From the NCBI GenBank assembly GCA_963971285.1, contig OZ020255.1, forward strand, positions 744,001 to 808,000: a stretch of DNA of 64,000 bases. Reading direction: 5' to 3'. This DNA comes from Astropecten irregularis. Its lineage: Eukaryota; Echinodermata; Asteroidea; Paxillosida; Astropectinidae. This document shows positions 1-64,000 of the stretch, one piece after another. The stretch's first letter is position 1; the number at the start of each line of letters is the position of its first letter. The position numbers were made by a program, and so were the translations under genes. The notes under the pieces were generated by a model. That model saw nothing but the letters and a program-made list of their open reading frames with translations, was not told the DNA's origin and searched no databases.

Positions 1-203
1 CAAATTCAATCTGAGACTGACTGCCCGGACAGTGACTTGTCTGTTAAATGTACTGTCTACGGTAGGTTTCACTTCCTCTTGTTCAGTAATGGGCAGGTCT
101 TTGAGTGTCACAAGTCCAGTTGTTTCGTCGACAGATGTCGATGCACTACCAGTGACAGAGGCCAGTTGTCCAGATGATTTGTCCATAGATTCGAGACAAT
201 ATC
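1..203 (-). CDS. U0: partial E5 cut by the window edge
   Basis: The GYC end of an E5 exon, with its acceptor (ttactacag) at 204. The exon runs off the window at base 1. It carries a private silent change in the Ser codon before MD (TCT instead of TCA). Confidence 0.85.
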
Positions 204-3200
204 CTGTAGTAAGGGAATCGCGCAGGTTAACAACGAATAATTGACGGTGAAGGAAAAGAATGCGAAACATTTTAATCAACTAGATCTGCGAATGAACTAC
301 AAATAATGGTAGTGGTGTGAAAGGTAAGGTAGAACAATTAATCTGTCGTACCTTGAGTGGTTGATGGCGGAGGTGTTGTGCTTATGACAGTTGTGGTCAC
401 TGTAGTGGTTCGAGTCGTCGGGACAGTGGTAGAGTATTCTAGAAGAAGAAGAGGTGTTGTTATTAAGATTAGTCATTAAGATGTAAGTCACAATGGGTGT
501 TTGCATTCTTAGATAGAAATATCACGATCTGCTTGTAAAGAAATGCTGTAGAGAGACTTACCTTTCACACAACCGAGGACATGAAGCTCAAAAGTTGTTG
601 CATCAGCATCACTGACATTGCGGAACTGAATACGCAATTCTGTCACACCATCCAGTGTTCCTTCGAAATCTGGCAAAAGCGTCGTGATGGGCTCGTCTTG
701 TTTGACGGTGATGTTTATTAGCTGTAGAGGAAGATGGTATGGATTCAGCACGGTCAGACACGTTGCCCAGGTGAAAAGAAATGAAAAATTGGATCTTAAA
801 AGATTTATGTTTGCCTGCTTACCTTCTGTTGTCCAGTGGAGTCATCAATGACGTCAGTAAAGGTGCTGTCTCCTGGTTTCTTAACAGTCAGCGTGACGGT
901 GAATGTTATTGGCTCTTGTGGAGTAGGTTGCCTTGATGTTGTGCTTTCTTGTGTTCCAGTAGGTACAGTGGTTGACCCAGGAGAGCGCAAAGTGACGACA
1001 AAGGCTCTGACTTGGACGGGTTCCCGGAAGACACGCAGCACACTTGGAATACCACTTGAAGCTTCACCTATTGGTATCTCTGTGATCTTCAGGTACGAGG
1101 TGTTTTCGTCAACTGTGAGTGTCCCTTCAGGTGTGATGCTAGATTCAAGTCCTTTCTCGCCATCCATTGGCTCTAGGCAATATCCTATAGGGACAAACAA
1201 ATGTGAAATCAATCAGTATCCATTGGAGGGACATTTGTGGAAGAACTTATTTGGCTTGGAAAAGAAGAAATGTAAATACAGGAAAATCATCCGCATTATC
1301 TCTGCAAGGTTATTGTTCTACTCTATCCTCATACCTGGAGTGGTTGACCTCTCCGATGTTGTCGTGCTCGACCTTGTTGTTTCTTCAGTGATACTTGTAG
1401 TCGGTGTAGTGACAGTGGTCACTTTGGTTGTCATCTCAGTTGTTGAGTATTCTAAAAGAAAATGTGTTTTGCCGTAGAAGACATGAGATATTGAAAGCAT
1501 GTCATCTGTAGTACTGTTTAGGAAGGGCATTGGTAGTCTGCAAAATGGTGCCAGTATTTGGATGTGATATGCGTGAAATTTTATTTTGAAAACACAACGG
1601 TGTTGGGAAAAGGAGAAAATGTTCTTACCCTCGGCACATCCTAAAACGGTCAGTTGCAGTTCAATAGAATCAGCTACTTTGACTGTCTGGAACTCAATAC
1701 GGAATACCAAAATTCCCTCTAGATTGTTGTCATCCGTCAGGAATGTAACCCTTTGTGACAAGCCTACTTCGAGCACGACGGGTACTCTCTGTAATTTGAA
1801 ATAAAAGACGAAATATTTATATTCTGTTGAGGAATGATTTGCTTCGCAGGAAGTACGGACTTGTGAAAATGTGGTCTGATTTTAGTCTCGAATATTGTGT
1901 GTTAATTTTGATCTGAACATACCTTTATCTGATCATTGCTATCCCGCACAGGCGAAAACCTAATGTCTCCGGGTTTCTGTGTGGAGAAAGTTAAGTTAAC
2001 TTCCACTTGTGCCGGCTTTTGGGTGCTTTCTGTTGGTGTTGTGGATGACAGTGGCAAATTCAATCTGAGACTGACTGCCCGGACAGTGACTTGTCTGTTA
2101 AATGTACTGTCTACGGTAGGTTTCACTTCCTCTTGTTCAGTAATGGGCAGGTCTTTGAGTGTCACAAGTCCAGTTGTTTCGTCGACAGATGTCGATGCAC
2201 TACCAGTGACAGAGGCCAGTTGTCCAGATGATTTGTCCATTGATTCGAGACAATATCCTGTAGTAAGGGAATCGCGCAGGTTAACAACGAATAATTGACG
2301 GTGAAGGAAAAGAATGCGAAACATTTTAATCAACTAGATCTGCGAATGAACTACAAATAATGGTAGTGGTGTGAAAGGTAAGGTAGAACAATTTATCTGT
2401 CGTACCTTGAGTGGTTGATGGCGGAGGTGTTGTGCTTATGACAGTTGTGGTCACTGTAGTGGTTCGAGTCGTCGGGACAGTGGTAGAGTATTCTAGAAGA
2501 AGAAGAGGTGTTGTTATTAAGATTAGTCATTAAGATGTAAGTCACAATGGGTGTTTGCATTCTTAGATAGAAATATCACGATCTGCTTGTAAAGAAATGC
2601 TGTAGAGAGACTTACCTTTCACACAACCGAGGACATGAAGCTCAAAAGTTGTTGCATCAGCATCACTGACATTGCGGAACTGAATACGCAATTCTGTCAC
2701 ACCATCCAGTGTTCCTTCGAAATCTGGCAAAAGCGTCGTGATGGGCTCGTCTTGTTTGACGGTGATGTTTATTAGCTGTAGAGGAAGATGGTATGGATTC
2801 AGCACGGTCAGACACGTTGCCCAGGTGAAAAGAAATGAAAAATTGGATCTTAAAAGATTTATGTTTGCCTGCTTACCTTCTGTTGTCCAGTGGAGTCATC
2901 AATGACGTCAGTAAAGGTGCTGTCTCCTGGTTTCTTAACAGTCAGCGTGACGGTGAATGTTATTGGCTCTTGTGGAGTAGGTTGCCTTGATGTTGTGCTT
3001 TCTTGTGTTCCAGTAGGTACAGTGGTTGACCCAGGAGAGCGCAAAGTGACGACAAAGGCTCTGACTTGGACGGGTTCCCGGAAGACACGCAGCACACTTG
3101 GAATACCACTTGAAGCTTCACCTATTGGTATCTCTGTGATCTTCAGGTACGAGGTGTTTTCGTCAACTGTGAGTGTCCCTTCAGGTGTGATGCTAGATTC

Positions 3201-51200: not shown

Positions 51201-54200
51201 CCATATAAGAACAACTGAGAATATGTATTATAACTTCTAGGTGTTGTTTTCACTTTTGTTTTTAGGTTTTACGTTTCTTCTAGTGGAGCTGCGCGTCAGC
51301 AAAAACATGGATTAAATGTGAACTTATTGATTCATTGTTAGGGAACTTTCATTGCATTAAAACTAATTAATTTGAAATAGAAGTACAAGTAATAAACTGC
51401 TGCAAACTGCCTATCAGCAACAATTACCTGAAATATATCAAATGCTTGGAGTTAAAAGAGCCTGAAGCGTTTCGATCCTAGCAGGATCTTTATCAAAGGA
51501 AAATATACAGAGTTCTTATAAGGGTCACCGGAAGAATACATGATTGACGTGGAACGTGCTGTCTTAACACGCCATGGACTGATGTAGAACGGAAAGAGAT
51601 CAGTTTGGAAAGACGCAGTATTTGTTGCTCTTTAGATCAATTTCTGAGGAATTAAACTGTGCCTCCACACTGAGTAAAACCCTACTTGGGAATGCGCATG
51701 CGTTTGTAAACAAAGGAACTATATACTTATTGTTAGTTGGGTTTTGTCCCGTTAAAGGAACTCCTTTAGACATACAGCAGAAACATGGAAAATACATGAT
51801 ATCAATGACCACAGTATGTAATCAGAACAAGTATCAGAACGAAACTTACGAGGACGTCTTTGTTGTACTGTCGTTGTTAAAATCTCAGAATCTCCAGGGG
51901 GAGCTGGGAATTAAAACAAAATACAGCACATATTTCTAACACTGAATTTATTTCTCCGTAAGCCTTTCATTATTGTAAAATGTAAAAAAAAAAAATCAAA
52001 ACGCATACTTGAATTTGAAGATGTGGTTTTGAACCTAGGTTGATTAGTGTAAAACGGATTCAAGCCCCTTAGACTTGTAGCATTTTCTCTGTACATACCT
52101 CTGGTTAAGTTTAACCTCTTTATTCAGTTACTGTATTTAATTATTGTAATTTTCAGGAAATTACTTAAGCAGAACATCCTATCGTTGAATATCCTCTACA
52201 AACTAATATAAATATAATACTATTCCAGATCGGTGTTCGTAGTCCAGCATTTCATATTTGGCAGCAAGGAGCATAACATAATGTAGTCGTATTTACCTTA
52301 CGTGGTCGATAGAGTGGTTTGAGGTGTTGCGACTAATGATATTTGTGTGAGAGGTACAGTGGAACAATTTATCTTTCATACCTTGAGTGGTTGATGGCGG
52401 AGGTGTTGTGCTTATGACAGTTGTGGTCACTGTAGAGGTTCGAGTCGTCGGGAAAGTGGTAGAGTATTCTAGAAGAAGAGGTGTTGTTATTAAGATTAGT
52501 CATTAAGATGTAAGTCACAATGGGTGTTTGCATTCTTAGATAGAAATATCACGTTCTGCTTGTGAAGAAATGCTGTAGAGAGACTTACCTTTCACACAAC
52601 CGAGGACATGAAGCTCAAAAGTTGTTGCATCAGCATCACTGACATTGCGGAACTGAATACGCAATTCTGTCACACCATCCAGTGTTCCTTCGAAATCTGG
52701 CAAAAGCGTCATGATTGGCTCGTCTTGTTTGACGGTGATGTTTATTAGCTGTATAGGAATACGGTATGGATTCAGCATGGTCAGATACGTTGCCCAGGTG
52801 AAAAGAAATGAAAAATTGGACCTTGAAAGATTTATATTTGTCTGCTTACTTTCTGTCGTCCAGTGGAGTCATCAATGACGTCAGTAAAGGTGCTGTCTCC
52901 TGGTTTCTTAACACTCAGTGTGACGGTGACTGTTACTGGCTCTTGTGGAGTAGGTTGCCTTGATGTTGTGCTTTCTTGTGTTCCAGTAGGTACAGTGGTT
53001 GATTCAGGAGAGCGCAAAGTGACGACAAAGGCTCCAACTTGGACGGGTTCTCGGAAGACACGCAGCACACTTGGAATATCACTTGAAGTTTCACCTGTTG
53101 GTATCTGTGTGATCGTCAGGTACGAGGTGTTTTCGTCAACTGTGAGTGTCCCTTCAGGTGTGATGCTAGATTCAAGTCCTTTCTCGCCATCCATTGGCTC
53201 TAGGCAATATCCTATAGGGACAAACAAATGTGAAATCAATCAGTATCCATTGGAGGGAAATTTAAGGAAGAACTTATTTGGCTTGGAAAAGAAGAAATGT
53301 AAATACAGGAAAGTCATCCGCATTATCTCTCCAATTGTATTGTTCTACTCTATCCTCATACCTGGAGTGGTTGACCTCTCCGATGTTGTCGTACTCGACC
53401 TTGTTGTTTCTTCAGTGATACTTGTAGTCGGTGTAGTGACAGTGGTTACTTTGGTTGTTACCTTTTCTGTTGAATGTGCTACAAGAAGAATTTCATTGCA
53501 TGTTATTCATTATATTTATTAAAAATAATAATTTAATTTTATGTTTTTAAAAATCGTGCAAAATATTTTAGATGTATTTTTTTTGGAAAGCAAATAATAC
53601 CATATAAGAACAACTGAGAATATGTATTATAACTTCTAGGTGTTGTTTTCACTTTTGTTTTTAGGTTTTACGTTTCTTCTAGTGGAGCTGCGCGTCAGTA
53701 AAAACATGGATTAAATGTGAACTTATTGATTCATTGTTAGGGAACTTTCATTGCATTAAAACTAATTAATTTGAAATAGAAGTACAAGTAATAAACTGCT
53801 GCAAACTGCCTATCAGCAACAATTACCTGAAATATATCAAATGCTTGGAGTTAAAAGAGCCTGAAGCGTTTCGATCCTAGCAGGATCTTTATCAAAGGAA
53901 AATATACAGAGTTCTTATAAGGGTCACCGGAAGAATACATGATTGACGTGGAACGTGCTGTCTTAACACGCCATGGACTGATGTAGAACGGAAAGAGATC
54001 AGTTCGGAAAGACGCAGTATTTGTTGCTCTTTAGATCAATTTCTGAGGAATTAAACTGTGCCTCCACACTGAGTAAAACCCTACTTGGGAATGCGCATGC
54101 GTTTGTAAACAAAGGAACTATATACTTATTGTTAGTTGGGTTTTGTCCCGTTAAAGGAACTCCTTTAGACATACAGCAGAAACATGGAAAATACATGATA

Positions 54201-57200
54201 TCAATGACCACAGTATGTAATCAGAACAAGTATCAGAACGAAACTTACGAGGACGTCTTTGTTGTACTGTCGTTGTTAAAATCTCAGAATCTCCAGGGGG
54301 AGCTGGGAATTAAAACAAAATACAGCACATATTTCTAACACTGAATTTATTTCTCCGTAAGCCTTTCATTACTGTGAAATGTAAAAAAAAAAAATCAAAA
54401 CGCATACTTGAATTTGAAGATGTGGTTTTGAACCTAGGTTGATTAGTGTAAAACGGATTCAAGCCCCTTAGACTTGTAGCATTTTCTCTGTACATACCTC
54501 TGGTTAAGTTTAACCTCTTTAATCAGTTACTGTATTTAATTATTGTAATTTTCAGGAAATGACTTAAGCAGAACATCCTATCGTTGAATATCCTCTACAA
54601 ACTAATATAAATATAATACTATTCCAGATCGGTGTTCGTAGTCCAGCATTTCATATTTGGCAGCAAGGAGCATAACCTAATGTAGTCGTATTTACCTTAC
54701 GTGGTCGATAGAGTGGTTTGAGGTGTTGTGACTAATGATATTTGTGTGAGAGGTACAGTGGAACAATTTATCTTTCATACCTTGAGTGGTTGATGGCGGA
54801 GGTGTTGTGCTTATGACAGTTGTAGTCACTGTAGTGGTTCGAGTCGTCGGGACAGTGGTAGAGTATTCTAGAAGAAGAGGTGTTGTTATTAAGATTAGTA
54901 ATTAAGATGTAAGTCACAATGGGTGTTTGCATTCTTAGATAGAAATATCACGTTCTGCTTGTGAAGAAATGCTGTAGAGAGACTTACCTTTCACACAACC
55001 GAGGACATGAAGCTCAAAAGTTGTTGCATCAGCATCACTGACATTGCGGAACTGAATACGCAATTCTGTCACACCATCCAGTGTTCCTTCGAAATCTGAC
55101 AAAAGCGTCATGATGGGCTCGTCTTGTTTGACGGTGATGTTTATTAGCTGTAGAGGAATACGGTATGGATTCAGCATGGTCAGATACGTTGCCCAGGTGA
55201 AAAGAAATGAAAAATTGGACCTTGAAAGATTTGTATTTGTCTGCTTACTTTCTGTCGTCCAGTGGAGTCATCAATGACGTCAGTAAAGGTGCTGTCTCCT
55301 GGTTTCTTAACACTCAGTGTGACGGTGACTGTTACTGGCTCTTGTGGAGTAGGTTGCCTTGATGTTGTGCTTTCTTGTGTTCCAGTAGGTACAGTGGTTG
55401 ATTCAGGAGAGCGCAAAGTGACGACAAAGGCTCCAACTTGGACGGGTTCTCGGAAGACACGCAGCACACTTGGAATATCACTTGAAGTTTCACCTGTTGG
55501 TATCTGTGTGATCGTCAGGTACGAGGTGTTTTCGTCAACTGTGAGTGTCCCTTCAGGTGTGATGCTAGATTCAAGTCCTTTCTCGCCATCCATTGGCTCT
55601 AGGCAATATCCTATAGGGACAAACAAATGTGAAGTCAATCAGTACCCATTGGAGGGAAATTTAAGGAAGAACTTATTTGGCTTGGAAAAGAAGAAATGTA
55701 AATACAGGAAAGTCATCCGCATTATCTCTCCAATTGTATTGTTCTACTCTATCCTCATACCTGGAGTGGTTGACCTCTCCGATGTTGTCGTACTCGACCT
55801 TGTTGTTTCTTCAGTGATACTTGTAGTCGGTGTAGTGACAGTGGTTACTTTGGTTGTCATCTCAGTTGTTGAGTATTCTAAAAGAAAATGTGTTTTGCCT
55901 TAGAAGACATGATATATTGAAAGCATTTCATCTGTAGTAATGTTAAGGTAGGGCATTGGTAGTCTGCAAAATGGTGCAATTTTTTGGATTTGATATGCGT
56001 GAAATTTTATTTTGAAAACATGACGGTATTGGGAAAAGGTGAAAATGTTCTTACCCTCGGCACATCCTAAAACGGTCAGTTGCAGTTCAATAGAATCAGC
56101 TTCTATGACTGTCTGGAACTCAATACGGAATACCGAAATTCCCTCTAGATTGTTGTCATCCGTCAGGAATGTAACCCTTTGTGACAAGCCTCCTTCGAGC
56201 ACGACGGCTACGGTCTGTAATTTGAAATAAAAGACGACATTTTTATATTCTGCTGAGGAATGATTTGCTCCGCGGGAAATATGGACTAGTGAAAATGTGG
56301 GCTGAATTTCGTCTCGAATATTGTGTGTTAATTTTAATCTGAGCATACCTTTATCTGATCATTGCTATCCCGCACAGGCGAAAACCCAGTGTCTCCGTAT
56401 TTCTGTGTGGAGAAAGTTAAGTTAACTTCCACTTTTGCCGGCTGTTGGGTGCTTTCTGTTGGTGTTGTGGATGACAGTGGCAAACTCAATGTGAGACTGA
56501 CTGCCCGGACAGTGATTTGTTTGTTAAATGTACTGTCTACGGTAGCTTTCTCTTGCTCGTGTGTATTTGGCAGGTCTTTGAGTGTCACAAGTCCAGTTGT
56601 TTCGTCTACAGATGCCGATGCACTACCAGTGACAGAGGCCAGTTGTCCAGATGATTTGTCCATTGGTTCGAGACAATATCCTGTAGTAGGGGAATCGCGC
56701 AGGTTAACAACGAATAATTGACGGTGAAGGAAAAGAATGCGAAACATTTTAATCAGCTAGATCTGCGGTTAAAGAACAAATAATGGTAGTGGTGTGATAG
56801 GTTTTGTAGAACAATTTATCTTTCATACCTTGAGTGGTTGATGGCGGAGGTGTTGTGCTTATGACAGTTGTGGTCACTGTAGAGGTTCGAGTCGTCGGGA
56901 AAGTGGTAGAGTATTCTAGAAGAAGAGGTGTTGTTATTAAGATTAGTCATTAAGATGCAAGTCACAATGGGTTTTTGCATTCTTAGATGGAAATATCGCG
57001 TTCTGCTTGTGAAGAAATGCTGTAGAGAGACTTACCTTTCACACAACCGAGGACATGAAGCTCAAAAGTTGTTGCATCAGCATCACTGACATTGCGGAAC
57101 TGAATACGCAATTCTGTCACACCATCCAGTGTTCCTTCGAAATCTGGCAAAAGCGTCATGATGGGCTCGTCTTGTTTGACGGTGATGTTTATTAGCTGTA

Positions 57201-60200
57201 TAGGAATACGGTATGGATTCAGCATGGTCAGATACGTTGCCCAGGTGAAAAGAAATGAAAAATTGGACCTTGAAAGATTTATATTTGTCTGCTTACTTTC
57301 TGTCGTCCAGTGGAGTCATCAATGACGTCAGTAAAGGTGCTGTATCCTGGTTTCTTAACACTCAGTGTGACGGTGACTGTTACTGGCTCTTGTGGAGTAG
57401 GTTGCCTTGATGTTGTGCTTTCTTGTGTTCCAGTAGGTACAGTGGTTGATTCAGGAGAGCGCAAAGTGACGACAAATGCTCCAACTTGGACGGGTTCTCG
57501 GAAGACACGCAGCACACTTGGAATATCACTTGAAGTTTCACCTGTTGGTATCTGTGTGATCGTCAGGTACGAGGTGTTTTCGTCAACTGTGAGTGTCCCT
57601 TCAGGTGTGATGCTAGATTCAAGTCCTTTCTCGCCATCCATTGGCTCTAGGCAATATCCTATAGGGACAAACAAATGTGAAGTCAATCAGTATCCATTGG
57701 AGGGAAATTTAAGGAAGAACTTATTTGGCTTGGAAAAGAAGAAATGTAAATACAGGAAAGTCATCCGCATTATCTCTCCAATTGTATTGTTCTACTCTAT
57801 TCTCATACCTGGAGTGGTTGACCTCCCCGATGTTGTCGTACTCGACCTTGTTGTTTCTTCAGTGATACTTGTAGTCGGTGTAGTGACAGTGGTTACTTTG
57901 GTTGTCATCTCAGTTGTTGAGTATTCTAAAAGAAAATGTGTTTTGCCTTAGAAGACATGATATATTGAAAGCATTTCATCTGTAGTAATGTTAAGGTAGG
58001 GCATTGGTAGTCTGCAAAATGGTGCAATTTTTTGGATTTGATATGCGTGAAATTTTATTTTGAAAACATGACGGTATTGGGAAAAGGTGAAAATGTTCTT
58101 ACCCTCGGCACATCCTAAAACGGTCAGTTGCAGTTCAATAGAATCAGCTTCTATGACTGTCTGGAACTCAATACGGAATACCGAAATTCCCTCTAGATTG
58201 TTGTCATCCGTCAGGAATGTAACCCTTTGTGACAAGCCTCCTTCGAGCACGACGGCTACGGTCTGTAATTTGAAATAAAAGACGAAATTTTTATATTCTG
58301 CTGAGGAATGATTTGCTCCGCGGGAAATATGGACTAGTGAAAATGTGGGCTGAATTTCGTCTCGAATATTGTGTGTTAATTTTAATCTGAGCATACCTTT
58401 ATCTGATCATTGCTATCCCGCACAGGCGAAAACCCAGTGTCTCCGTATTTCTGTGTGGAGAAAGTTAAGTTAACTTCCACTTGTGCCGGCTGTTGGGTGC
58501 TTTCTGTTGGTGTTGTGGATGACAGTGGCAAACTCAATGTGAGACTGACTGCCCGGACAGTGATTTGTTTGTTAAATGTACTGTCTACGGTAGCTTTCTC
58601 TTGCTCTTGTGTATTTGGCAGGTCTTTGAGTGTCACAAGTCCAGTTGTTTCGTCTACAGATGCCGATGCACTACCAGTGACAGAGGCCAGTTGTCCAGAT
58701 GATTTGTCCATTGGTTCGAGACAATATCCTGTAGTAGGGGAATCGCGCAGGTTAACAACGAATAATTGACGGTGAATGAAAAGAATGCGAAACATTTTAA
58801 TCAGCTAGATCTGCGGTTGAAGAACAAATAATGGTAGTGGTGTGATAGGTTTTGTAGAACAATTTATCTTTCATACCTTGAGTGGTTGATGGCGGAGGTG
58901 TTGTGCTTATGACAGTTGTGGTCACTGTAGAGGTTCGAGTCGTCGGGAAAGTGGTAGAGTATTCTAGAAGAAGAGGTGTTGTTATTAAGATTAGTCATTA
59001 AGATGCAAGTCACAATGGGTTTTTGCATTCTTAGATGGAAATATCGCGTTCTGCTTGTGAAGAAATGCTGTAGAGAGACTTACCTTTCACACAACCGAGG
59101 ACATGAAGCTCAAAAGTTGTTGCATCAGCATCACTGACATTGCGGAACTGAATACGCAATTCTGTCACACCATCCAGTGTTCCTTCGAAATCTGGCAAAA
59201 GCGTCATGATGGGCTCGTCTTGTTTGACGGTGATGTTTATTAGCTGTATAGGAATACGGTATGGATTCAGCATGGTCAGATACGTTGCCCAGGTGAAAAG
59301 AAATGAAAAATTGGACCTTGAAAGATTTATATTTGTCTGCTTACTTTCTGTCGTCCAGTGGAGTCATCAATGACGTCAGTAAAGGTGCTGTATCCTGGTT
59401 TCTTAACACTCAGTGTGACGGTGACTGTTACTGGCTCTTGTGGAGTAGGTTGCCTTGATGTTGTGCTTTCTTGTGTTCCAGTAGGTACAGTGGTTGATTC
59501 AGGAGAGCGCAAAGTGACGACAAATGCTCCAACTTGGACGGGTTCTCGGAAGACACGCAGCACACTTGGAATATCACTTGAAGTTTCACCTGTTGGTATC
59601 TGTGTGATCGTCAGGTACGAGGTGTTTTCGTCAACTGTGAGTGTCCCTTCAGGTGTGATGCTAGATTCAAGTCCTTTCTCGCCATCCATTGGCTCTAGGC
59701 AATATCCTATAGGGACAAACAAATGTGAAGTCAATCAGTATCCATTGGAGGGAAATTTAAGGAAGAACTTATTTGGCTTGGAAAAGAAGAAATGTAAATA
59801 CAGGAAAGTCATCCGCATTATCTCTCCAATTGTATTGTTCTACTCTATCCTCATACCTGGAGTGGTTGACCTCTCCGATGTTGTCGTACTCGACCTTGTT
59901 GTTTCTTCAGTGATACTTGTAGTCGGTGTAGTGACAGTGGTTACTTTGGTTGTCATCTCAGTTGTTGAGTATTCTAAAAGAAAATGTGTTTTGCCGTAGA
60001 AGACATGAGATATTGAAAGCATTTCATCTGTAGTACTGTTTAGGTAGGGCATTGGTAGTCTGCAAAATGGTGCCAGTTTTTGGATTTGATATGCCTGAAA
60101 TTTTATTTTGAAAACATGACGGTACTGGGAAAAGGTGAAAATGTTCTCACCCTCGGCACATCCTAAAACGGTCAGTTGCAGTTCAATAGAATCAGCTTCT

Positions 60201-63200
60201 ATGACTGTCTGGAACTCAATACGGAATACCGAAATTCCCTCTAGATTGTTGTCATCCGTCAGGAATTTAACCCTTTGTGACAAGCCTCCTTCGAGCACGA
60301 CGGCTACGGTCTGTAATTTGAAATAAAAGACGAAATGTTTATATTCTGCTGAGGAACGATTTGCTCCGCGGGAAATATGGACTAGTGAAAATGTGGGCTG
60401 AATTTCGTCTCGAATATTGTGTGTTAATTTTAATCTGAGCATACCTTTATCTGATCATTGCTATCCCGCACAGGCGAAAACCCAGTGTCTCCGTATTTCT
60501 GTGTGGAGAAAGTTAAGTTAACTTCCACTTGTGCCGGCTGTTGGGTGCTTTCTGTTGGTGTTGTGGATGACAGTGGCAAACTCAATGTGAGACTGACTGC
60601 CCGGACAGTGATTTGTTTGTTAAATGTACTGTCTACGGTAGCTTTCTCTTGCTCTTGTGTATTTGGCAGGTCTTTGAGTGTCACAAGTCCAGTTGTTTCG
60701 TCTACAGATGCCGATGCACTACCAGTGACAGAGGCCAGTTGTCCAGATGATTTGTCCATTGGTTCGAGACAATATCCTGTAGTAGGGGAATCGCGCAGGT
60801 TAACAACGAATAATTGACGGTGAAGGAAAAGAATGCGACACATTTTAATCAGCTAGATCTGCGGTTGAAGAACAAATAATGGTAGTGGTGTGATAGGTTT
60901 TGTAGAACAATTTATCTTTCATACCTTGAGTGGTTGATGGCGGAGGTGTTGTGCTTATGACAGTTGTGGTCACTGTAGAGGTTCGAGTCGTCGGGAAAGT
61001 GGTAGAGTATTCTAGAAGAAGAGGTGTTGTTATTTAGATTAATCATTAAGATGTAAGTCAAAATGGGTGTTTGCATTCTAAGATAGAAATATCGCGTTCT
61101 GCTTGTGAAGAAATGCTGTAGAGAGACTTACCTTTCACACAACCGAGGACATGAAGCTCAAAAGTTGTTGCATCAGCATCACTGACATTGCGGAACTGAA
61201 TACGCAATTCTGTCACACCATCCAGTGTTCCTTCGAAATCTGGCAAAAGCGTCATGATGGGCTCGTCTAGTTTGACGGTGATGTTTATTAGCTGTATAGG
61301 AATACGGTATGGATTCAGCATGGTCAGATACGTTGCCCAGGTGAAAGGAAATGAAAAATTGGACCTTGAAAGATTTGTATTTGTCTGCTTACTTTCTGTC
61401 GTCCAGTGGAGTCATCAATGACGTCAGTAAAGGTGCTGTCTCCTGGTTTCTTAACACTCAGTGTGACGGTGACTGTTACTGGCTCTTGTGGAGTAGGTTG
61501 CCTTGATGTTGTGCTTTCTTGTGTTCCAGTAGGTACAGTGGTTGATTCAGGAGAGCGCAAAGTGACGACAAAGGCTCCAACTTGGACGGGTTCTCGGAAG
61601 ACACGCAGCACACTTGGAATATCACTTGAAGTTTCACCTGTTGGTATCTGTGTGACCGTCAGGTACGAGGTGTTTTCGTCAACTGTGAGTGTCCCTTCAG
61701 GTGTGATGCTAGATTCAAGTCCTTTCTCGCCATCCATTGGCTCTAGGCAATATCCTATAGGGACAAACAAATGTGAAATCAATCAATATCCATTGGAGGG
61801 AAATTTAAGGAAGAACTTATTTGGCTTGGAAAAGAAGAAATGTAAATACAGGAAAGTCATCCGCATTATCTCTCCAATTGTATTGTTCTACTCTATCCTC
61901 ATACCTGGAGTGGTTGACCTCTCCGATGTTGTCGTACTCGACCTTGTTGTTTCTTCAGTGATACTTGTAGTCGGTGTAGTGACAGTGGTTACTTTGGTTG
62001 TTACCTTTTCTGTTGAATGTGCTACAAGAAGAATTTCATTGCATGTTATTCATTATATTTATTAAAAATAATAATTTAATTTTATGTTTTTAAAAATCGT
62101 GCAAAATATTTTAGATGTATTTTTTTTGGAAAGCAAATAATACCATATAAGAACAACTGAGAATATGTATTATAACTTCTAGGTGTTGTTTTCACTTTTG
62201 TTTTTAGGTTTTACGTTTCTTCTAGTGGAGCTGCGCGTCAGTAAAAACATGGATTAAATGTGAACTTATTGATTCATTGTTAGGGAACTTTCATTGCATT
62301 AAAACTAATTAATTTGAAATAGAAGTACAAGTAATAAACTGCTGCAAACTGCCTATCAGCAACAATTACCTGAAATATATCAAATGCTTGGAGTTAAAAG
62401 AGCCTGAAGCGTTTCGATCCTAGCAGGATCTTTATCAAAGGAAAATATACAGAGTTCTTATAAGGGTCACCGGAAGAACACATGATTGACGTGGAACGTG
62501 CTGTCTTAACACGCCATGGACTGATGTAGAACGGAAAGAGATCAGTTCGGAAAGACGCAGTATTTGTTGCTCTTTAGATCAATTTCTGAGGAATTAAACT
62601 GTGCCTCCACACTGAGTAAAACCCTACTTGGGAATGCGCATGCGTTTGTAAACAAAGGAACTATATACTTATTGTTAGTTGGGTTTTGTCCCGTTAAAGG
62701 AACTCCTTTAGACATACAGCAGAAACATGGAAAATACATGATATCAATGACCACAGTATGTAATCAGAACAAGTATCAGAACGAAACTTACGAGGACGTC
62801 TTTGTTGTACTGTCGTTGTTAAAATCTCAGAATCTCCAGGGGGAGCTGGGAATCAAAACAAAATACAGCACATATTTCTAACACTGAATTTATTTCTCCG
62901 TAAGCCTTTCATTACTTTGAAATGTAAAAAAAAAATCAAAACGCATACTTGAATTTGAAGATGTGGTTTTGAACCTAGGTTGATTAGTGTAAAACGGATT
63001 CAAGCCCTTTAGACTTGTAGCATTTTATCTGTACATACCTCTGGTTAAGTTTAACCTCTTTATTCAGTTACTGTATTTAATTATTGTAATTTTTAGGAAA
63101 TGACTTAAGCAGAACATCCTATCGTTGAATATCCTCTACAAACTAATATAAATATAATACTATTCCAGATCGGTGTTTGTAGTCCAGCATTTCATATTTG

Positions 63201-64000
63201 GCAGCAAGGAGCATAACATAATGTAGTCGTATTTACCTTACGTGGTCGATAGAGTGGTTTGAGGTGTTGTGACTAATGATATTTGTGTGAGAGGTACAGT
63301 GGAACAATTTATCTTTCATACCTTGAGTGGTTGATGGCGGAGGTGTTGTGCTTATGACAGTTGTGGTCACTGTAGTGGTTCGAGTCGTCGGGACAGTGGT
63401 AGAGTATTCTAGAAGAAGAAGAAGAGGTGTTGTTATTGAGATTAGTCATTAAGATGTAAGTCACAATGGGTGTTTGAATTCTTAGATAGAAATATCACGT
63501 TCTGCTTGTAAAGAAATGCTTTAGAGAGACTTACCTTTCACACAACCGAGGACATGAAGCTCAAAAGTTGTTGCATCAGCATCACTGACATTGCGGAACT
63601 GAATACGCAATTCTGTCACACCATCCAGTGTTCCTTCGAAATCTGACAAAAGCGTCATGATGGGCTCGTCTTGTTTGACGGTGATGTTTATTAGCTGTAG
63701 AGGAATACGGTATGGATTCAGCATGGTCAGATACGTTGCCCAGGTGAAAAGAAATGAAAAATTGGACCTTGAAAGATTTGTATTTGTCTGCTTACTTTCT
63801 GTCGTCCAGTGGAGTCATCAATGACGTCAGTAAAGGTGCTGTCTCCTGGTTTCTTAACACTCAGTGTGACGGTGACTGTTACTGGCTCTTGTGGAGTAGG
63901 TTGCCTTGATGTTGTGCTTTCTTGTGTTCCAGTAGGTACAGTGGTTGATTCAGGAGAGCGCAAAGTGACGACAAAGGCTCCAACTTGGACGGGTTCTCGG
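1..64000 (-). CDS. Giant tandem-repeat mucin-like glycoprotein gene, internal part (both ends outside window)
   Basis: Seen: about 176 minus-strand exons with consensus GT donors (mostly GTAAGT, GTAAGC, GTATG) and pyrimidine-AG acceptors. They join in frame throughout, alternating Thr/Ser/Pro linkers (29 or 39 aa) with about 165-174-aa domains. The window holds 30 complete beta domains plus one partial, and 26 complete alpha domains plus one partial, for about 11,700 residues in all. Each domain has two Cys, one at its start (GYCLE) and one at its end (LGC), NxS/NxT sequons, and no Trp. Known: Thr/Ser/Pro linkers are typical O-glycosylation regions of secreted or surface mucins, and symmetric phase-1 modules are typical of shuffled extracellular domains. 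Inferred: a secreted or surface polymer-like glycoprotein. I do not recognise the family; a discoidin-like beta-sandwich closed by its terminal Cys pair is possible but unproven. The start codon, signal peptide and any membrane anchor lie outside the window. The 1.3-kb segments might instead separate tandem gene copies. Confidence 0.8.
352..438 (-). CDS. Exon E4 (type copy, U1): 29-aa Thr-rich linker
   Basis: 87-nt exon, phase 1-1. The acceptor is cttcttctag at 439 and the donor GTACGACAG ends at 351. It encodes EYSTTVPTTR followed by TTTVTTTVISTTPPPSTTQ, about half Thr, with no Cys. Inferred role: an O-glycosylated, extended spacer between domain beta of one unit (E3, upstream in the transcript) and domain alpha of the next (E5). 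Its length and phase are the same in all 31 copies. The B copies use the donor GTATGAAAG. Confidence 0.85.
352..2257 (-). CDS. Unit U1 (A1): alpha + beta
   Basis: Exons: E4 352-438, E3 562-721, E2 823-1184, E1 1335-1451, E6 1629-1788, E5 1923-2257. E6 carries KVADS. There is a private intronic change, 'acaattaatc', near 339 beside E4. Confidence 0.86.
562..721 (-). CDS. Exon E3 (type copy, U1): C-terminal third of domain beta
   Basis: 160-nt exon entered at phase 0 (acceptor cctctacag at 722) and left at phase 1 (donor GTAAGTCTC ends at 561). It encodes LINITVKQDEP at the start and TTFELHVLGCVK at the end, with sequons NIT and NVS. Alternating hydrophobic residues suggest paired beta strands, and the closing Cys probably bonds the GYC cysteine of E2. 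It is the most conserved exon between subfamilies. E3 and E6 have identical length (160 nt) and phases and end in the same LGC motif, which shows their shared origin. Confidence 0.87.
823..1184 (-). CDS. Exon E2 (type copy, U1): N-terminal two-thirds of domain beta
   Basis: 362-nt exon, entered at phase 1 (acceptor tgtccctatag at 1185) and left at phase 0 (donor GTAAGC ends at 822). The split Gly codon is followed by YCLEPMDGEKGLESS. Strand-like stretches are VQVRAFVVTL and ITFTVTLTVKKPGDS. A Thr/Pro-rich loop of about 25 residues (STTVPTGTQESTTSRQPTP) sits inside the domain between two predicted strands, so O-glycan-type sequence is not confined to the linkers. The N-sequon is NTS. The only Cys is third in the domain. 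There is no Trp, unlike classical F5/8 type C domains, which weakens a discoidin assignment. Confidence 0.87.
1335..1451 (-). CDS. Exon E1 (type copy, U1): 39-aa Thr-rich linker
   Basis: 117-nt exon, phase 1-1, acceptor cttttag at 1452, donor GTATGAG ends at 1334. It encodes EYSTTEMTTKVTTVTTPTTS followed by ITEETTRSSTTTSERSTTP. It starts with the same EYSTT as E4, and its final g completes the Gly of E2, exactly as E4 does for E5, so the two linkers are homologous. It joins domain alpha (E6) to domain beta (E2) within a unit. Confidence 0.86.
1629..1788 (-). CDS. Exon E6 (type copy, U1): C-terminal third of domain alpha
   Basis: 160-nt exon entered at phase 0 (acceptor ttcaaattacag at 1789) and left at phase 1 (donor GTAAGAAC ends at 1628). 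It starts RVPVVLEVGLSQRVTF and ends IELQLTVLGCAE. The Cys matches that of E3. One spot just before ADSIE varies between units: KV in U1, U2, U6, U7 and U11; NE in U10; KE in the other A units; IE in the B units. Confidence 0.87.
1923..2257 (-). CDS. Exon E5 (type copy, U1): N-terminal two-thirds of domain alpha
   Basis: 335-nt exon, entered at phase 1 (acceptor ccttactacag at 2258) and left at phase 0 (donor GTATGTTC ends at 1922). After the split Gly codon comes YCLESMDKSSGQLAS, then VTVRAVSLRLNLPL, a short Thr/Pro loop (SSTTPTESTQKPA), VEVNLTFSTQKPGD and DSNDQIK. It aligns along its length with E2 (GYCLE-MD, VxVRA, a Thr loop, strand-KPGD), which shows that alpha and beta are diverged copies. 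The sequon is NLT. B copies are one codon shorter (332 nt). Confidence 0.87.
2406..4311 (-). CDS. Unit U2 (A1): alpha + beta
   Basis: Exons: E4 2406-2492, E3 2616-2775, E2 2877-3238, E1 3389-3505, E6 3683-3842, E5 3977-4311. E1 has a private Thr-to-Ile change (SSTITSERS). The E1-E6 intron carries the 'atcagat' variant shared with U5, U6 and U10. Confidence 0.86.
4460..6365 (-). CDS. Unit U3 (A1): alpha + beta
   Basis: Exons: E4 4460-4546, E3 4670-4829, E2 4931-5292, E1 5443-5559, E6 5737-5896, E5 6031-6365. First unit from the left with KEADS in E6. Confidence 0.86.
6514..8419 (-). CDS. Unit U4 (A1): alpha + beta
   Basis: Exons: E4 6514-6600, E3 6724-6883, E2 6985-7346, E1 7497-7613, E6 7791-7950, E5 8085-8419. 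The intron just upstream of E5 has 'aatcattgatgg' (near 8453), otherwise seen only around U13-U15. Confidence 0.86.
8568..10473 (-). CDS. Unit U5 (A1): alpha + beta
   Basis: Exons: E4 8568-8654, E3 8778-8937, E2 9039-9400, E1 9551-9667, E6 9845-10004, E5 10139-10473. It has the 'atcagat' intron variant, and a private A-to-T ('catttttatc') near 10540. Confidence 0.86.
10622..12527 (-). CDS. Unit U6 (A1): alpha + beta
   Basis: Exons: E4 10622-10708, E3 10832-10991, E2 11093-11454, E1 11605-11721, E6 11899-12058, E5 12193-12527. E6 is the KVADS type, and the E1-E6 intron has 'atcagat'. Confidence 0.86.
12676..14581 (-). CDS. Unit U7 (A1): alpha + beta
   Basis: Exons: E4 12676-12762, E3 12886-13045, E2 13147-13508, E1 13659-13775, E6 13953-14112, E5 14247-14581. 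Private changes: 'ccatttgagg' near 13546 (intron), 'gaaaaagtgg' near 14190 (intron) and a silent change in E5 near 14300. Confidence 0.86.
14730..16635 (-). CDS. Unit U8 (A1): alpha + beta
   Basis: Exons: E4 14730-14816, E3 14940-15099, E2 15201-15562, E1 15713-15829, E6 16007-16166, E5 16301-16635. E3 reads EGALDG instead of EGTLDG, shared only with U9. Confidence 0.86.
16784..18689 (-). CDS. Unit U9 (A1): alpha + beta
   Basis: Exons: E4 16784-16870, E3 16994-17153, E2 17255-17616, E1 17767-17883, E6 18061-18220, E5 18355-18689. A near twin of U8 through the shared EGALDG change. Confidence 0.86.
18838..20743 (-). CDS. Unit U10 (mixed A): alpha + beta
   Basis: Exons: E4 18838-18924, E3 19048-19207, E2 19309-19670, E1 19821-19937, E6 20115-20274, E5 20409-20743. 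E6 starts SVPVV (acceptor attccag) and has NEADS; E5 has SPVQDSND. Parts of this patch (near 20271-20430) recur in U21 and U22. Confidence 0.86.
20892..22797 (-). CDS. Unit U11 (mixed A): alpha + beta
   Basis: Exons: E4 20892-20978, E3 21102-21261, E2 21363-21724, E1 21875-21991, E6 22169-22328, E5 22463-22797. It combines the A2 marker 'ggaaattt' with KVADS, a typical A1 state, and has a private silent change in E5 near 22651. Confidence 0.86.
22946..24850 (-). CDS. Unit U12 (A2): alpha + beta
   Basis: Exons: E4 22946-23032, E3 23156-23315, E2 23417-23778, E1 23929-24045, E6 24222-24381, E5 24516-24850. First A2 unit, with a one-base loss in the E1-E6 intron. A private Val-to-Asp change in E2 (LTDKKPGD) puts a charge into a predicted beta strand. 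Confidence 0.86.
24999..26903 (-). CDS. Unit U13 (A2): alpha + beta
   Basis: Exons: E4 24999-25085, E3 25209-25368, E2 25470-25831, E1 25982-26098, E6 26275-26434, E5 26569-26903. The E3 donor is GTAGGT rather than GTAAGT, shared only with U14. 'aatcattgacgg' follows E5 on the plus strand. Confidence 0.86.
27052..28956 (-). CDS. Unit U14 (A2): alpha + beta
   Basis: Exons: E4 27052-27138, E3 27262-27421, E2 27523-27884, E1 28035-28151, E6 28328-28487, E5 28622-28956. E3 donor GTAGGT. A private Thr-to-Asn change in the E5 Thr loop (SSTNPTEST). Confidence 0.86.
29105..31009 (-). CDS. Unit U15 (A2): alpha + beta
   Basis: Exons: E4 29105-29191, E3 29315-29474, E2 29576-29937, E1 30088-30204, E6 30381-30540, E5 30675-31009. 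The E3 donor is GTAAGT again, and the intron beyond E5 has 'aatcattgacgg' (near 31041). Confidence 0.86.
31158..33062 (-). CDS. Unit U16 (A2): alpha + beta
   Basis: Exons: E4 31158-31244, E3 31368-31527, E2 31629-31990, E1 32141-32257, E6 32434-32593, E5 32728-33062. E5 has GSVSTS instead of GSAST(S), and E3 has a silent change near 31510. Confidence 0.86.
33211..35115 (-). CDS. Unit U17 (A1-like, within the A2 block): alpha + beta
   Basis: Exons: E4 33211-33297, E3 33421-33580, E2 33682-34043, E1 34194-34310, E6 34487-34646, E5 34781-35115. It carries A1 markers although both neighbours are A2. Its 2053-bp length comes from a different one-base loss ('gggaaaaaag' before E6). Private intron changes lie near 34107, 34376, 34440 and 34771. 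Confidence 0.86.
35264..37168 (-). CDS. Unit U18 (A2): alpha + beta
   Basis: Exons: E4 35264-35350, E3 35474-35633, E2 35735-36096, E1 36247-36363, E6 36540-36699, E5 36834-37168. 'ccactggagg' (near 36133) and 'ttttgcagtag' (near 36381) are shared only with U19. Confidence 0.86.
37317..39221 (-). CDS. Unit U19 (A2): alpha + beta
   Basis: Exons: E4 37317-37403, E3 37527-37686, E2 37788-38149, E1 38300-38416, E6 38593-38752, E5 38887-39221. Twin of U18 by two private intron variants. Confidence 0.86.
39370..41275 (-). CDS. Unit U20 (A1): alpha + beta
   Basis: Exons: E4 39370-39456, E3 39580-39739, E2 39841-40202, E1 40353-40469, E6 40647-40806, E5 40941-41275. E5 has GSTSTS, hitting the same codon that is changed in U16. 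Confidence 0.86.
41424..43330 (-). CDS. Unit U21 (A1): alpha + beta
   Basis: Exons: E4 41424-41510, E3 41634-41793, E2 41895-42256, E1 42408-42524, E6 42702-42861, E5 42996-43330. An extra A in the E2-E1 intron ('aaacaaaatg', shared with U22) makes this unit 2055 bp. SVPVV in E6 and SPVQDSND in E5 match U10, 11 units away. Confidence 0.86.
43479..45384 (-). CDS. Unit U22 (A1/A2 mosaic): alpha + beta
   Basis: Exons: E4 43479-43565, E3 43689-43848, E2 43950-44311, E1 44463-44579, E6 44756-44915, E5 45050-45384. It combines the U21 extra A, the A2 one-base loss before E6, and SVPVV at the E6 start, so it is a visible mosaic. Confidence 0.86.
45533..46632 (-). CDS. Unit U23 (A body with C end): beta only
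   Basis: Exons: E4 45533-45619, E3 45743-45902, E2 46004-46365, E1c 46516-46632. The body is A-like ('gtggaagaac', 'gaaaatcatc'), but from about 46483 ('ctctccaattg') it is B/C-like. The linker exon is the diverged E1c (AHSTEKVTTK at its start, acceptor cttcttgtag at 46633), still 117 nt and phase 1-1. E1c has a private Thr-to-Asn (TVNTPTT). No E5 or E6 follows. Confidence 0.83.
47014..47053 (-). other. Hairpin plus GAAAC, hammerhead-ribozyme-like, copy 1
   Basis: Read on the minus strand: TTGATAAA, then a perfect 5-bp stem GATCC / GGATC with loop TGCTA, then GAAACGCTTCAGG. The arrangement CUGANGA - stem II - GAAA is the hammerhead core, and such motifs are known in Penelope-like elements and retrozymes of animals. 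Two core positions differ from consensus and there is one extra A before the stem, so self-cleavage is doubtful. It lies on the same strand as the gene's transcript. Confidence 0.35.
47849..47884 (-). pseudogene. Decayed or alternative terminal linker exon, copy 1
   Basis: 36 nt resembling the end of E4, bounded by a possible acceptor (atatcattag) and donor (GTAAATAC). Entered at phase 1 it reads VTTPQTTLSTT and then TAA. The intron to the preceding E4 would be only 49 nt. It is either a dead remnant of a linker or a short terminal exon; AATAAA lies about 170 nt further along the transcript. Confidence 0.45.
47934..49833 (-). CDS. Unit U24 (B, cap subtype): alpha + beta
   Basis: Exons: E4 47934-48020, E3 48141-48300, E2 48402-48763, E1 48914-49030, E6 49208-49367, E5 49502-49833. 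E3 has LLSDFEG, shared with U27 and U31, all of which lie on the high-coordinate side of a 1.3-kb segment. The E6 donor is GTGAGA. E5 ends NDQKK. Confidence 0.85.
49982..51078 (-). CDS. Unit U25 (C): beta only
   Basis: Exons: E4 49982-50068, E3 50189-50348, E2 50450-50811, E1c 50962-51078. It lacks alpha; the upstream neighbour in the transcript is the second 1.3-kb segment. If spliced across it, U26 E4 joins E1c in frame to make a 68-aa double Thr-rich linker. Confidence 0.83.
51460..51499 (-). other. Hairpin plus GAAAC, copy 2
   Basis: Identical core to copy 1, including the same departures from the hammerhead consensus, so these predate duplication of the segment. Confidence 0.35.
52297..52332 (-). 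pseudogene. Decayed or alternative terminal linker exon, copy 2
   Basis: As copy 1 but with one change in the second codon (ACA replaced by GCA). The TAA is kept. Confidence 0.42.
52382..53478 (-). CDS. Unit U26 (C): beta only
   Basis: Exons: E4 52382-52468, E3 52589-52748, E2 52850-53211, E1c 53362-53478. It is flanked on both sides by 1.3-kb segments, so it forms an isolated single-domain block. Nearly identical to U25. Confidence 0.83.
53859..53898 (-). other. Hairpin plus GAAAC, copy 3
   Basis: Identical core to the other copies, in the middle of the third 1.3-kb segment. Confidence 0.35.
54696..54731 (-). pseudogene. Decayed or alternative terminal linker exon, copy 3
   Basis: Same 36 nt as copy 1, with the in-frame TAA kept and ATTAAA downstream. 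Confidence 0.42.
54781..56680 (-). CDS. Unit U27 (B, cap subtype): alpha + beta
   Basis: Exons: E4 54781-54867, E3 54988-55147, E2 55249-55610, E1 55761-55877, E6 56055-56214, E5 56349-56680. LLSDFEG in E3. E5 has PAKVEV and NTHEQEK as private changes. Confidence 0.85.
56829..58728 (-). CDS. Unit U28 (B): alpha + beta
   Basis: Exons: E4 56829-56915, E3 57036-57195, E2 57297-57658, E1 57809-57925, E6 58103-58262, E5 58397-58728. E2 has KKPGYSTF (Asp to Tyr, shared with U29). E1 has a private SGRSTTP. Confidence 0.85.
58877..60776 (-). CDS. Unit U29 (B): alpha + beta
   Basis: Exons: E4 58877-58963, E3 59084-59243, E2 59345-59706, E1 59857-59973, E6 60151-60310, E5 60445-60776. KKPGYSTF as in U28. 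E6 has RVKFLTDD (Thr to Lys) and donor GTGAGA. Confidence 0.85.
60925..62021 (-). CDS. Unit U30 (C): beta only
   Basis: Exons: E4 60925-61011, E3 61132-61291, E2 61393-61754, E1c 61905-62021. Private VKLDEP in E3 (Gln to Leu) and YLTVTQ in E2. The fourth 1.3-kb segment lies upstream in the transcript. Confidence 0.83.
62402..62441 (-). other. Hairpin plus GAAAC, copy 4
   Basis: Identical core to the other copies, in the fourth 1.3-kb segment. Confidence 0.35.
63237..63272 (-). pseudogene. Decayed or alternative terminal linker exon, copy 4
   Basis: Same 36 nt as copy 1, with TAA kept and AATAAA downstream at 63059-63064. Confidence 0.42.
63322..64000 (-). CDS. Unit U31 (B/C, cap subtype): partial
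   Basis: Exons: E4 63322-63408, E3 63535-63694, E2 from 63796 running off the window. LLSDFEG in E3. The GAA tract beside E4 is the longest in the window. Whether this unit has an alpha module cannot be seen. Confidence 0.84.
63409..63426 (+). repeat. GAA triplet tract in the E4 acceptor region (U31 example)
   Basis: 'ctagaagaagaagaag' next to E4. On the gene strand this is the CTT-rich polypyrimidine tract of the E4 acceptor. The tract is one triplet shorter in A units and two shorter in U24-U30. Confidence 0.7.

Follow-up and report, generated by a model that had tools for sequence, protein, structure and literature searches.

A 64,000-nucleotide stretch of the genome of the sea star Astropecten irregularis (the window; contig OZ020255.1, hereafter C19, positions 744001 to 808000, in an assembly of 475.7 Mb in 168 contigs) most probably forms the middle of one giant gel-forming-mucin gene on the C19 minus strand, about 502 kb long, a reading to which we assign a probability of roughly 0.7. 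An initial annotation of the window had proposed one giant gene with both ends lying beyond it, and the surroundings bear this out: VWD-C8 blocks occur upstream and a stop-bearing cystine knot occurs downstream on the same strand, and exons are open and phase-consistent throughout the parts read between them. A regular exon anatomy, an open frame in those parts, and end domains in a consistent order on one strand characterize the locus, and a single transcript is the best reading of this arrangement. Positions of features within the window are numbered 1 to 64,000, and all other coordinates refer to C19. Exon anatomy was read directly from the sequence of C19:594,001-878,000 (284 kb, window included), in which exons were defined by near-full-length BLAST matches.

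The locus closes with a stop codon at about 529,325 and reaches upstream at least as far as 1,031,327. Along the minus strand, parts of three VWD-C8 blocks are followed by Cys-rich exons, a Ser/Thr linker, and an array of 3.49-kb units; next come the units of ~2.05 kb, some 160 in number, and then additional Ser/Thr exons, two arrays composed of short, mucin-like exons, and the cystine knot. VWD matches on the minus strand (1014336-1014527, 1015259-1015522, 1022218-1022418, and 1031172-1031327) alternate with C8 matches on the same strand (1013411-1013569, 1019695-1019892, and 1030830-1031072). Upstream of the arrays lie Ser/Thr exons and, at ~C19:989-990 kb, two Cys-rich exons that by eye look like TIL and E modules. 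Downstream of the arrays, a Cys_knot match over the cut-off spans 529343-529609. The knot exon, read directly, closes with the stop codon, matches both DAN and Cys_knot of Pfam over the cut-off, and has its best PDB match in the von Willebrand factor knot (3.1e-8); the exon preceding it ends in CCPVC and resembles the end of a VWC domain by eye. Because VWD-C8 alternation, a repetitive Pro/Thr/Ser-rich centre, and a C-terminal cystine knot are present in this order and orientation, the locus has the layout of the gel-forming mucin/VWF family.

The window is occupied by two blocks of the 2.05-kb array, compared by BLAST with its first unit:

Window 1-46612, minus strand: left block, units ~99% identical to the first unit, extending to ~C19:594.8 kb
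Window 47886-64000, minus strand: right block, units ~94% identical to the first unit, extending to ~C19:932.6 kb

These sub-arrays join near window position 46,600, and the whole 2.05-kb array spans ~C19:594.8 to 932.6 kb. The regular unit, on the minus strand, is about 2,054 bp long (2,048 bp in the right block) and contains six exons:

Window 823-1184, minus strand: a1 in the first unit, 362 bp, encoding the initial portion of the alpha domain (GYC...GQQK), located by its splice borders and an exon search; present in 30 complete copies within the window
Window 562-721, minus strand: a2 in the first unit, 160 bp, encoding the closing portion of the alpha domain (LINIT...LGCVK); present in 31 complete copies
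Window 352-438, minus strand: a3 in the first unit, 87 bp, encoding a Ser/Thr/Pro linker; present in 31 complete copies
Window 1923-2257, minus strand: b1, 335 bp (332 bp in the right block), encoding the initial portion of the beta domain; present in 26 complete copies
Window 1629-1788, minus strand: b2, 160 bp, encoding the closing portion of the beta domain (...LGCAE); present in 26 complete copies
Window 1335-1451, minus strand: b3, 117 bp, encoding a Ser/Thr/Pro linker; present in 26 complete copies

The six exon lengths sum to 1221 bp, or 407 amino acids, as the initial annotation had stated for its six-exon repeat; the 332-bp form of b1 is found in 38 of 127 copies. The usual introns measure 101, 123 or 120, 148, 134, 176 or 177, and 150 bp. 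The first two exons of each half encode a domain of ~165-175 residues that has a cysteine close to the start (GYC) and another at the end (LGC), and exactly two cysteines occur in every complete module (260 of 260). Exon 3 of each half encodes a linker in which Pro, Thr, and Ser together account for 72% (a3) or 67% (b3) of residues. The alpha and beta halves are 33% identical to each other. Module borders are uniformly in phase 1, and the border within each domain is in phase 0, such that unequal crossing-over can add or remove whole units with the frame kept.

Throughout the 284 kb, all 784 core exons have AG/GT borders, none contains a stop, and their order is strict, with core exons missing only in the beta halves of units that have an alpha half alone. 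Spliced in silico, these exons encode 53,115 residues (5.74 MDa), and the part read is 19.3% Thr, 9.8% Ser, and 6.5% Pro. The window contributes 170 complete core exons and 11,472 residues; when the linker exons x1 and x3 of the alpha-only units are included, the count is 178 exons and 11,700 residues without a break in frame, in agreement with the ~176 exons and ~11,700 residues first claimed. The b2-b3 intron lacks an in-frame stop in many units (e.g., window 1318-1881, minus strand, where exons plus intron form a 187-residue open frame), and retention of an intron would preserve the frame in 45 of 775 cases.

The proposal of six exons per unit holds for the regular units and fails for eight alpha units in the 284 kb, four of them in the window, that have no beta half. 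Alpha-only units carry candidate linker exons x1, x2, and x3 within a longer intron (24 matches). Those in the window are as follows:

Window 46516-47457, minus strand: first alpha-only unit; x1 at 47404-47457, x2 at 46789-46842 (in-frame TAA), x3 at 46516-46632
Window 50962-51903, minus strand: second alpha-only unit; x1 at 51850-51903, x2 at 51235-51288 (in-frame TAA), x3 at 50962-51078
Window 53362-54302, minus strand: third alpha-only unit; x1 at 54249-54302, x2 at 53634-53687 (in-frame TAA), x3 at 53362-53478
Window 61905-62845, minus strand: fourth alpha-only unit; x1 at 62792-62845, x2 at 62177-62230 (in-frame TAA), x3 at 61905-62021

The x2 exon keeps its AG/GT borders, and because all four window copies contain an in-frame TAA, x2 must be skipped there; the TAA is absent from the four copies at C19:596-606 kb. 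Skipping x2 everywhere leaves the frame intact and free of stops, for a total of 53,571 residues over the 284 kb. An insert of ~1 kb at C19:597.4-598.4 kb, in the long intron of one alpha-only unit, has repeated GGGGTAAGTTGAGCC-like words at its ends and is perhaps a mobile element.

Both sides of the 2.05-kb array continue into related sequence. An array with a 3,493-bp unit starts near 932.6 kb; each unit holds a diverged alpha domain, ~58-59% identical to that of the 2.05-kb array, and two beta-like domains. Among the matches listed, 16 alpha-like matches lie between 933,216 and 987,474, spaced by exactly 3,493 bp in 14 of 15 cases, and 25 alpha matches lie between 878 and 932.6 kb, in steps of 2,048 or 2,043 bp with one double step. 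At the other array end, a diverged unit at ~593.4-594.6 kb precedes more Ser/Thr-rich open stretches and a related-looking single-exon domain at 590.7-591.2 kb, a search with which returned only its self-match. Farther along are a 664-bp array of short Ser/Thr-rich exons at ~570-590 kb and 13 matches spaced 1.5-1.6 kb apart at 546.6-565.8 kb. In the repeat searches, the best 150 of 364 and the best 150 of 366 candidates all fell inside the locus, and diverged copies may exist elsewhere. From these counts, and partly from the spacing of matches, we estimate ~160 alpha modules, 150 beta modules, and 48 modules of the 3.49-kb array, or ~74,000 residues; with the ends and short arrays, the whole protein would reach an estimated ~75,000 residues.

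Several features of the ends, the middle, and the variation of this locus weigh against its being one gel-forming-mucin gene. The array, the VWD-C8 blocks, and the knot are joined at the level of genomic sequence, and C19:530.2-574, 878-928, 948-987.4, and 991.4-1031 kb lie outside the sequence read. VWD blocks 1 and 2 were recovered only partly, the TIL- and E-like exons have no match in Pfam or the PDB, and the unassigned two-cysteine domain sits where mucins have CysD. In the gel-forming mucin/VWF family, the knot is usually preceded by a fourth VWD and by VWC domains, but D4 is absent from some members. Here, no fourth VWD was detected downstream of the arrays near the 3' end (E<=0.001), and no VWC exceeded the cut-off in the locus or appeared downstream of the arrays at E<=1; two weak VWC-like matches, under the cut-off, are located at 998.8 and 1003.4 kb. 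Given the VWD-C8 blocks, the Pro/Thr/Ser-rich centre, and the knot, and with the fourth VWD and VWC not found, we regard the gene as a variant of gel-forming-mucin type and as no orthologue of a named mucin.

The VWD part, the arrays, and the knot part might also be separate transcription units, or the array might contain internal starts and ends, in which case the proteins would be shorter. The stretches between the ends were read only in part, and the few longer introns (~1.6-2.7 kb) in alpha-only units could hold such starts or ends. We consider a division into several genes unlikely, since the locus contains one VWD-C8 set and one cystine knot on this strand, each at the expected end, and the 784 core exons run without a frame break.

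Variation was analyzed in two blocks of regular units (89 and 36 units). There are 88 distinct substitutions in 1221 exon bases versus 148 in ~831 intron bases (p ~1e-11), corresponding to an exon density ~0.4 that of introns. Within blocks, length variants number zero in exons and eight in introns, and no splice dinucleotide is changed in introns of the usual length. No stops occur in exons, as against 3.4 expected from the mutation types. The remaining points unfavourable to a single mucin gene come from the classes of substitution. Recent variants include 60 nonsynonymous changes (60.4 expected) and 27 synonymous changes (24.2 expected), and since the nonsynonymous count equals expectation, the exon deficit does not reflect simple protein-level selection on recent variants; furthermore, the left and right consensus sequences differ by 10.5 synonymous and 35.5 nonsynonymous changes, a ratio of nonsynonymous to synonymous rates (dN/dS) of 1.15. 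Near-neutral values of this sort, together with the stop in the four window copies of x2, would be anticipated if the array were silent or partly decayed coding sequence that grew in a satellite-like manner without full-length translation. Yet over the older distance between the 2.05-kb and 3.49-kb arrays, dN/dS is 0.42-0.45 at a dS of ~0.69 (exons 1 and 2 of both halves only), which, with the missing stops, the constant exon lengths, and the low exon density, makes a silent array highly improbable.

The number of copies could instead be an artefact of assembly, with the true array much shorter or much longer, as such long and uniform arrays are hard to assemble; in MUC16, long-read sequencing of transcripts brought the number of repeats down from 63 to 19 (PMC10829539). 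However, exact repeats in the 284 kb reach at most 4,402 bp, and within their own block 113 of the 125 regular units are distinct, which means that accurate long reads could place the individual units. We think it quite improbable that the size of the array is artefactual. Similarity is greatest between adjacent units (at lag 1, 8.2 differences versus 13.8 overall in the left block, and 6.9 versus 12.3 in the right), as expected from local unequal exchange or conversion.

The repeat domain had no significant match in Pfam or the PDB when searched as single sequences and as profiles. In this respect the family is unrecognised, as first described, but the gene can be named by its ends, which have the gel-forming mucin/VWF layout. 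Weak Pfam matches (Cep192_D8, DUF3821, CshA_repeat, and SUZ) were below the cut-off and mutually discordant, and neither unspliced nor spliced modules matched the SEA domain of Pfam. An alignment of seven domains from different arrays contains 24 invariant columns. A discoidin (F5/8C) fold, considered on account of the two terminal cysteines and the final GC, is unsupported: there was no Pfam match, and hhalign against four F5/8C sequences gave probabilities of 3.2% and 12.5%, over the last 19-22 columns only. An AlphaFold2 model of exon a1 alone, built with 11 window rows, had a mean predicted local distance difference test (pLDDT) score of 35.6, too low for use. Within the window, an Rfam scan detected no family above threshold, there were no inverted repeats of >=30 bp, and Tandem Repeats Finder gave no hit, its period having been capped at 500. 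No published description of this gene was found in a literature judged mainly by titles and abstract openings.

By analogy with VWF and vertebrate mucins, the protein would be secreted, forming dimers through its C-terminal knot and polymers through its D domains. Some 360 two-cysteine domains of ~165-175 residues would alternate with Ser/Thr/Pro linkers, presumably O-glycosylated, and the product would be an extremely long hydrated chain, probably for mucus or a mucus-like secretion. The size of the array would change by unequal crossing-over of whole phase-matched units.

The same molecule could serve as a structural or adhesive secretion protein, such as those of tube-foot footprints or egg coats, and not as a general mucin of epithelial mucus. 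Among the footprint proteins of sea stars, vWF D and vWF C domains occur together with Thr-rich repeats and galactose-binding domains: Sfp13 is reported to have vWF D and vWF C, Sfp12 to be Thr-rich and repetitive, and Sfp10 to carry a carbohydrate-binding domain, and all three are described as poorly placed in the Asterias rubens genome, within repeats whose assembly was poor (PMC9382459). VWD and FA58C domains are reported to be combined repeatedly in temporary adhesives (PMC10057474). The likeness of the gene to the footprint proteins (Sfp1, which has 3853 residues, Sfp10, Sfp12, and Sfp13) is by description only and amounts to a lead, and an adhesive role seems to us possible but doubtful.

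For the gel-forming mucin itself, a fuller account stands at about even odds. It comprises a single secreted polypeptide of more than 50,000 and probably ~75,000 residues, longer than any other animal protein known to have been predicted, encoded by a half-megabase gene with probably more than 1,000 exons; a middle that grows and shrinks by exchange of phase-matched multi-exon units; and a mucin chain on the scale of micrometres, relatives of which may underlie the unassembled sea-star footprint proteins Sfp10, Sfp12, and Sfp13, with their Thr-rich, vWF-D, and galactose-binding parts.

In gel-forming mucins, the centre is one large exon rich in Pro, Thr, and Ser with CysD domains. The present gene shares with these mucins (MUC2, MUC5AC, MUC5B, and MUC6) and with VWF three N-terminal VWD-C8 blocks, a repetitive Ser/Thr/Pro middle, and a C-terminal knot, all on one strand, but differs in having multi-exon units with a two-cysteine domain, in having no fourth VWD found, and in being far longer (for MUC2, we used the model in PMC11207715). 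MUC16 (CA125) resembles it in its tandem units of a globular domain and a Ser/Thr/Pro linker, each spread over several exons, with five exons per 156-residue, 1.9-kb repeat (PMC3431878). Unlike MUC16, which has a SEA domain and is membrane bound, this gene has no SEA match and ends in VWD and knot domains. MUC16 is nevertheless the nearest precedent known for a multi-exon repeat of domain plus linker, as well as a warning on copy number; the initial remark that few animal genes repeat a complete multi-exon unit was fair, with MUC16 as one such case.

Titin has ~35,000 residues and PKZILLA-1 has ~45,000, and the longest Omnitrophota prediction has ~85,800. The 53,115 residues read here, which represent part of the gene, exceed the lengths of both titin and PKZILLA-1, and the longest Omnitrophota prediction may exceed this gene. 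According to a survey, Omnitrophota proteins are longer than the huge proteins of eukaryotes (PMC11573180).

If transcribed as one message, the gene would represent an extreme of eukaryotic gene expression, with an estimated ~225 kb of coding mRNA, more than 1,000 splices that keep hundreds of near-identical exons in order, and the secretion of a protein of ~8 MDa before glycosylation. The locus shows a gel-forming-mucin layout with a centre that grew by copying a whole multi-exon unit, introns included. Such a system would make testable the order of splicing among identical exons and the relation between chain length and the properties of mucus. Several loci on C19 share these end domains, and similar genes may therefore have escaped notice, their sequence being too repetitive for the assembly of transcripts.

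VWD-C8 clusters paired with a cystine knot in the same orientation are present elsewhere on C19, at ~4.67-4.86 Mb (plus strand), 4.97-4.88 Mb (minus), 5.05-5.00 Mb (minus), 5.155-5.374 Mb (plus), and 12.93-12.85 Mb (minus). These five loci are likely related mucin genes, some near 200 kb in length, and the recurrence of the pairing suggests that the gene is part of a local family. On other contigs, C10:27052371-27104165 (plus strand) contains more than a dozen VWD and C8 matches in tandem, which we take to be a zonadhesin/FCGBP-like layout, and C9:2369592-2423746 (plus strand) contains several dozen tandem VWC matches over ~54 kb, indicating another large repetitive extracellular gene.

The assembly also includes the mitochondrial genome (C168, 16,335 bp), whose COX1 scores 822 bits against mammalian COX1. 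In this gene, all four AAA codons align with Asn of mammalian COX1, 10 TGA codons fit Trp, and six AGA codons fall at small residues, two of them at Ser; opposite the 10 ATA codons, the mammalian protein has Ile at three sites, Met at two, and either Val or Leu at the others. Translation of AAA as Asn is characteristic of echinoderms and flatworms (genetic code table 9), and the closeness to mammalian COX1 favours the echinoderm reading. The same codon argues against a lancelet, as does, weakly, a search for GFP-family sequences that found none here but also none in its control genomes. A second COX1-family match, at C131:32162-33484 (plus strand), lies in a 552-residue open frame without TGA and is unlike the mitochondrial copy, perhaps marking a bacterial contig from a symbiont or contaminant. 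A third, at C25:9951047-9952018 (plus strand), has seven TGA codons on a large contig and is probably a nuclear copy of mitochondrial DNA.
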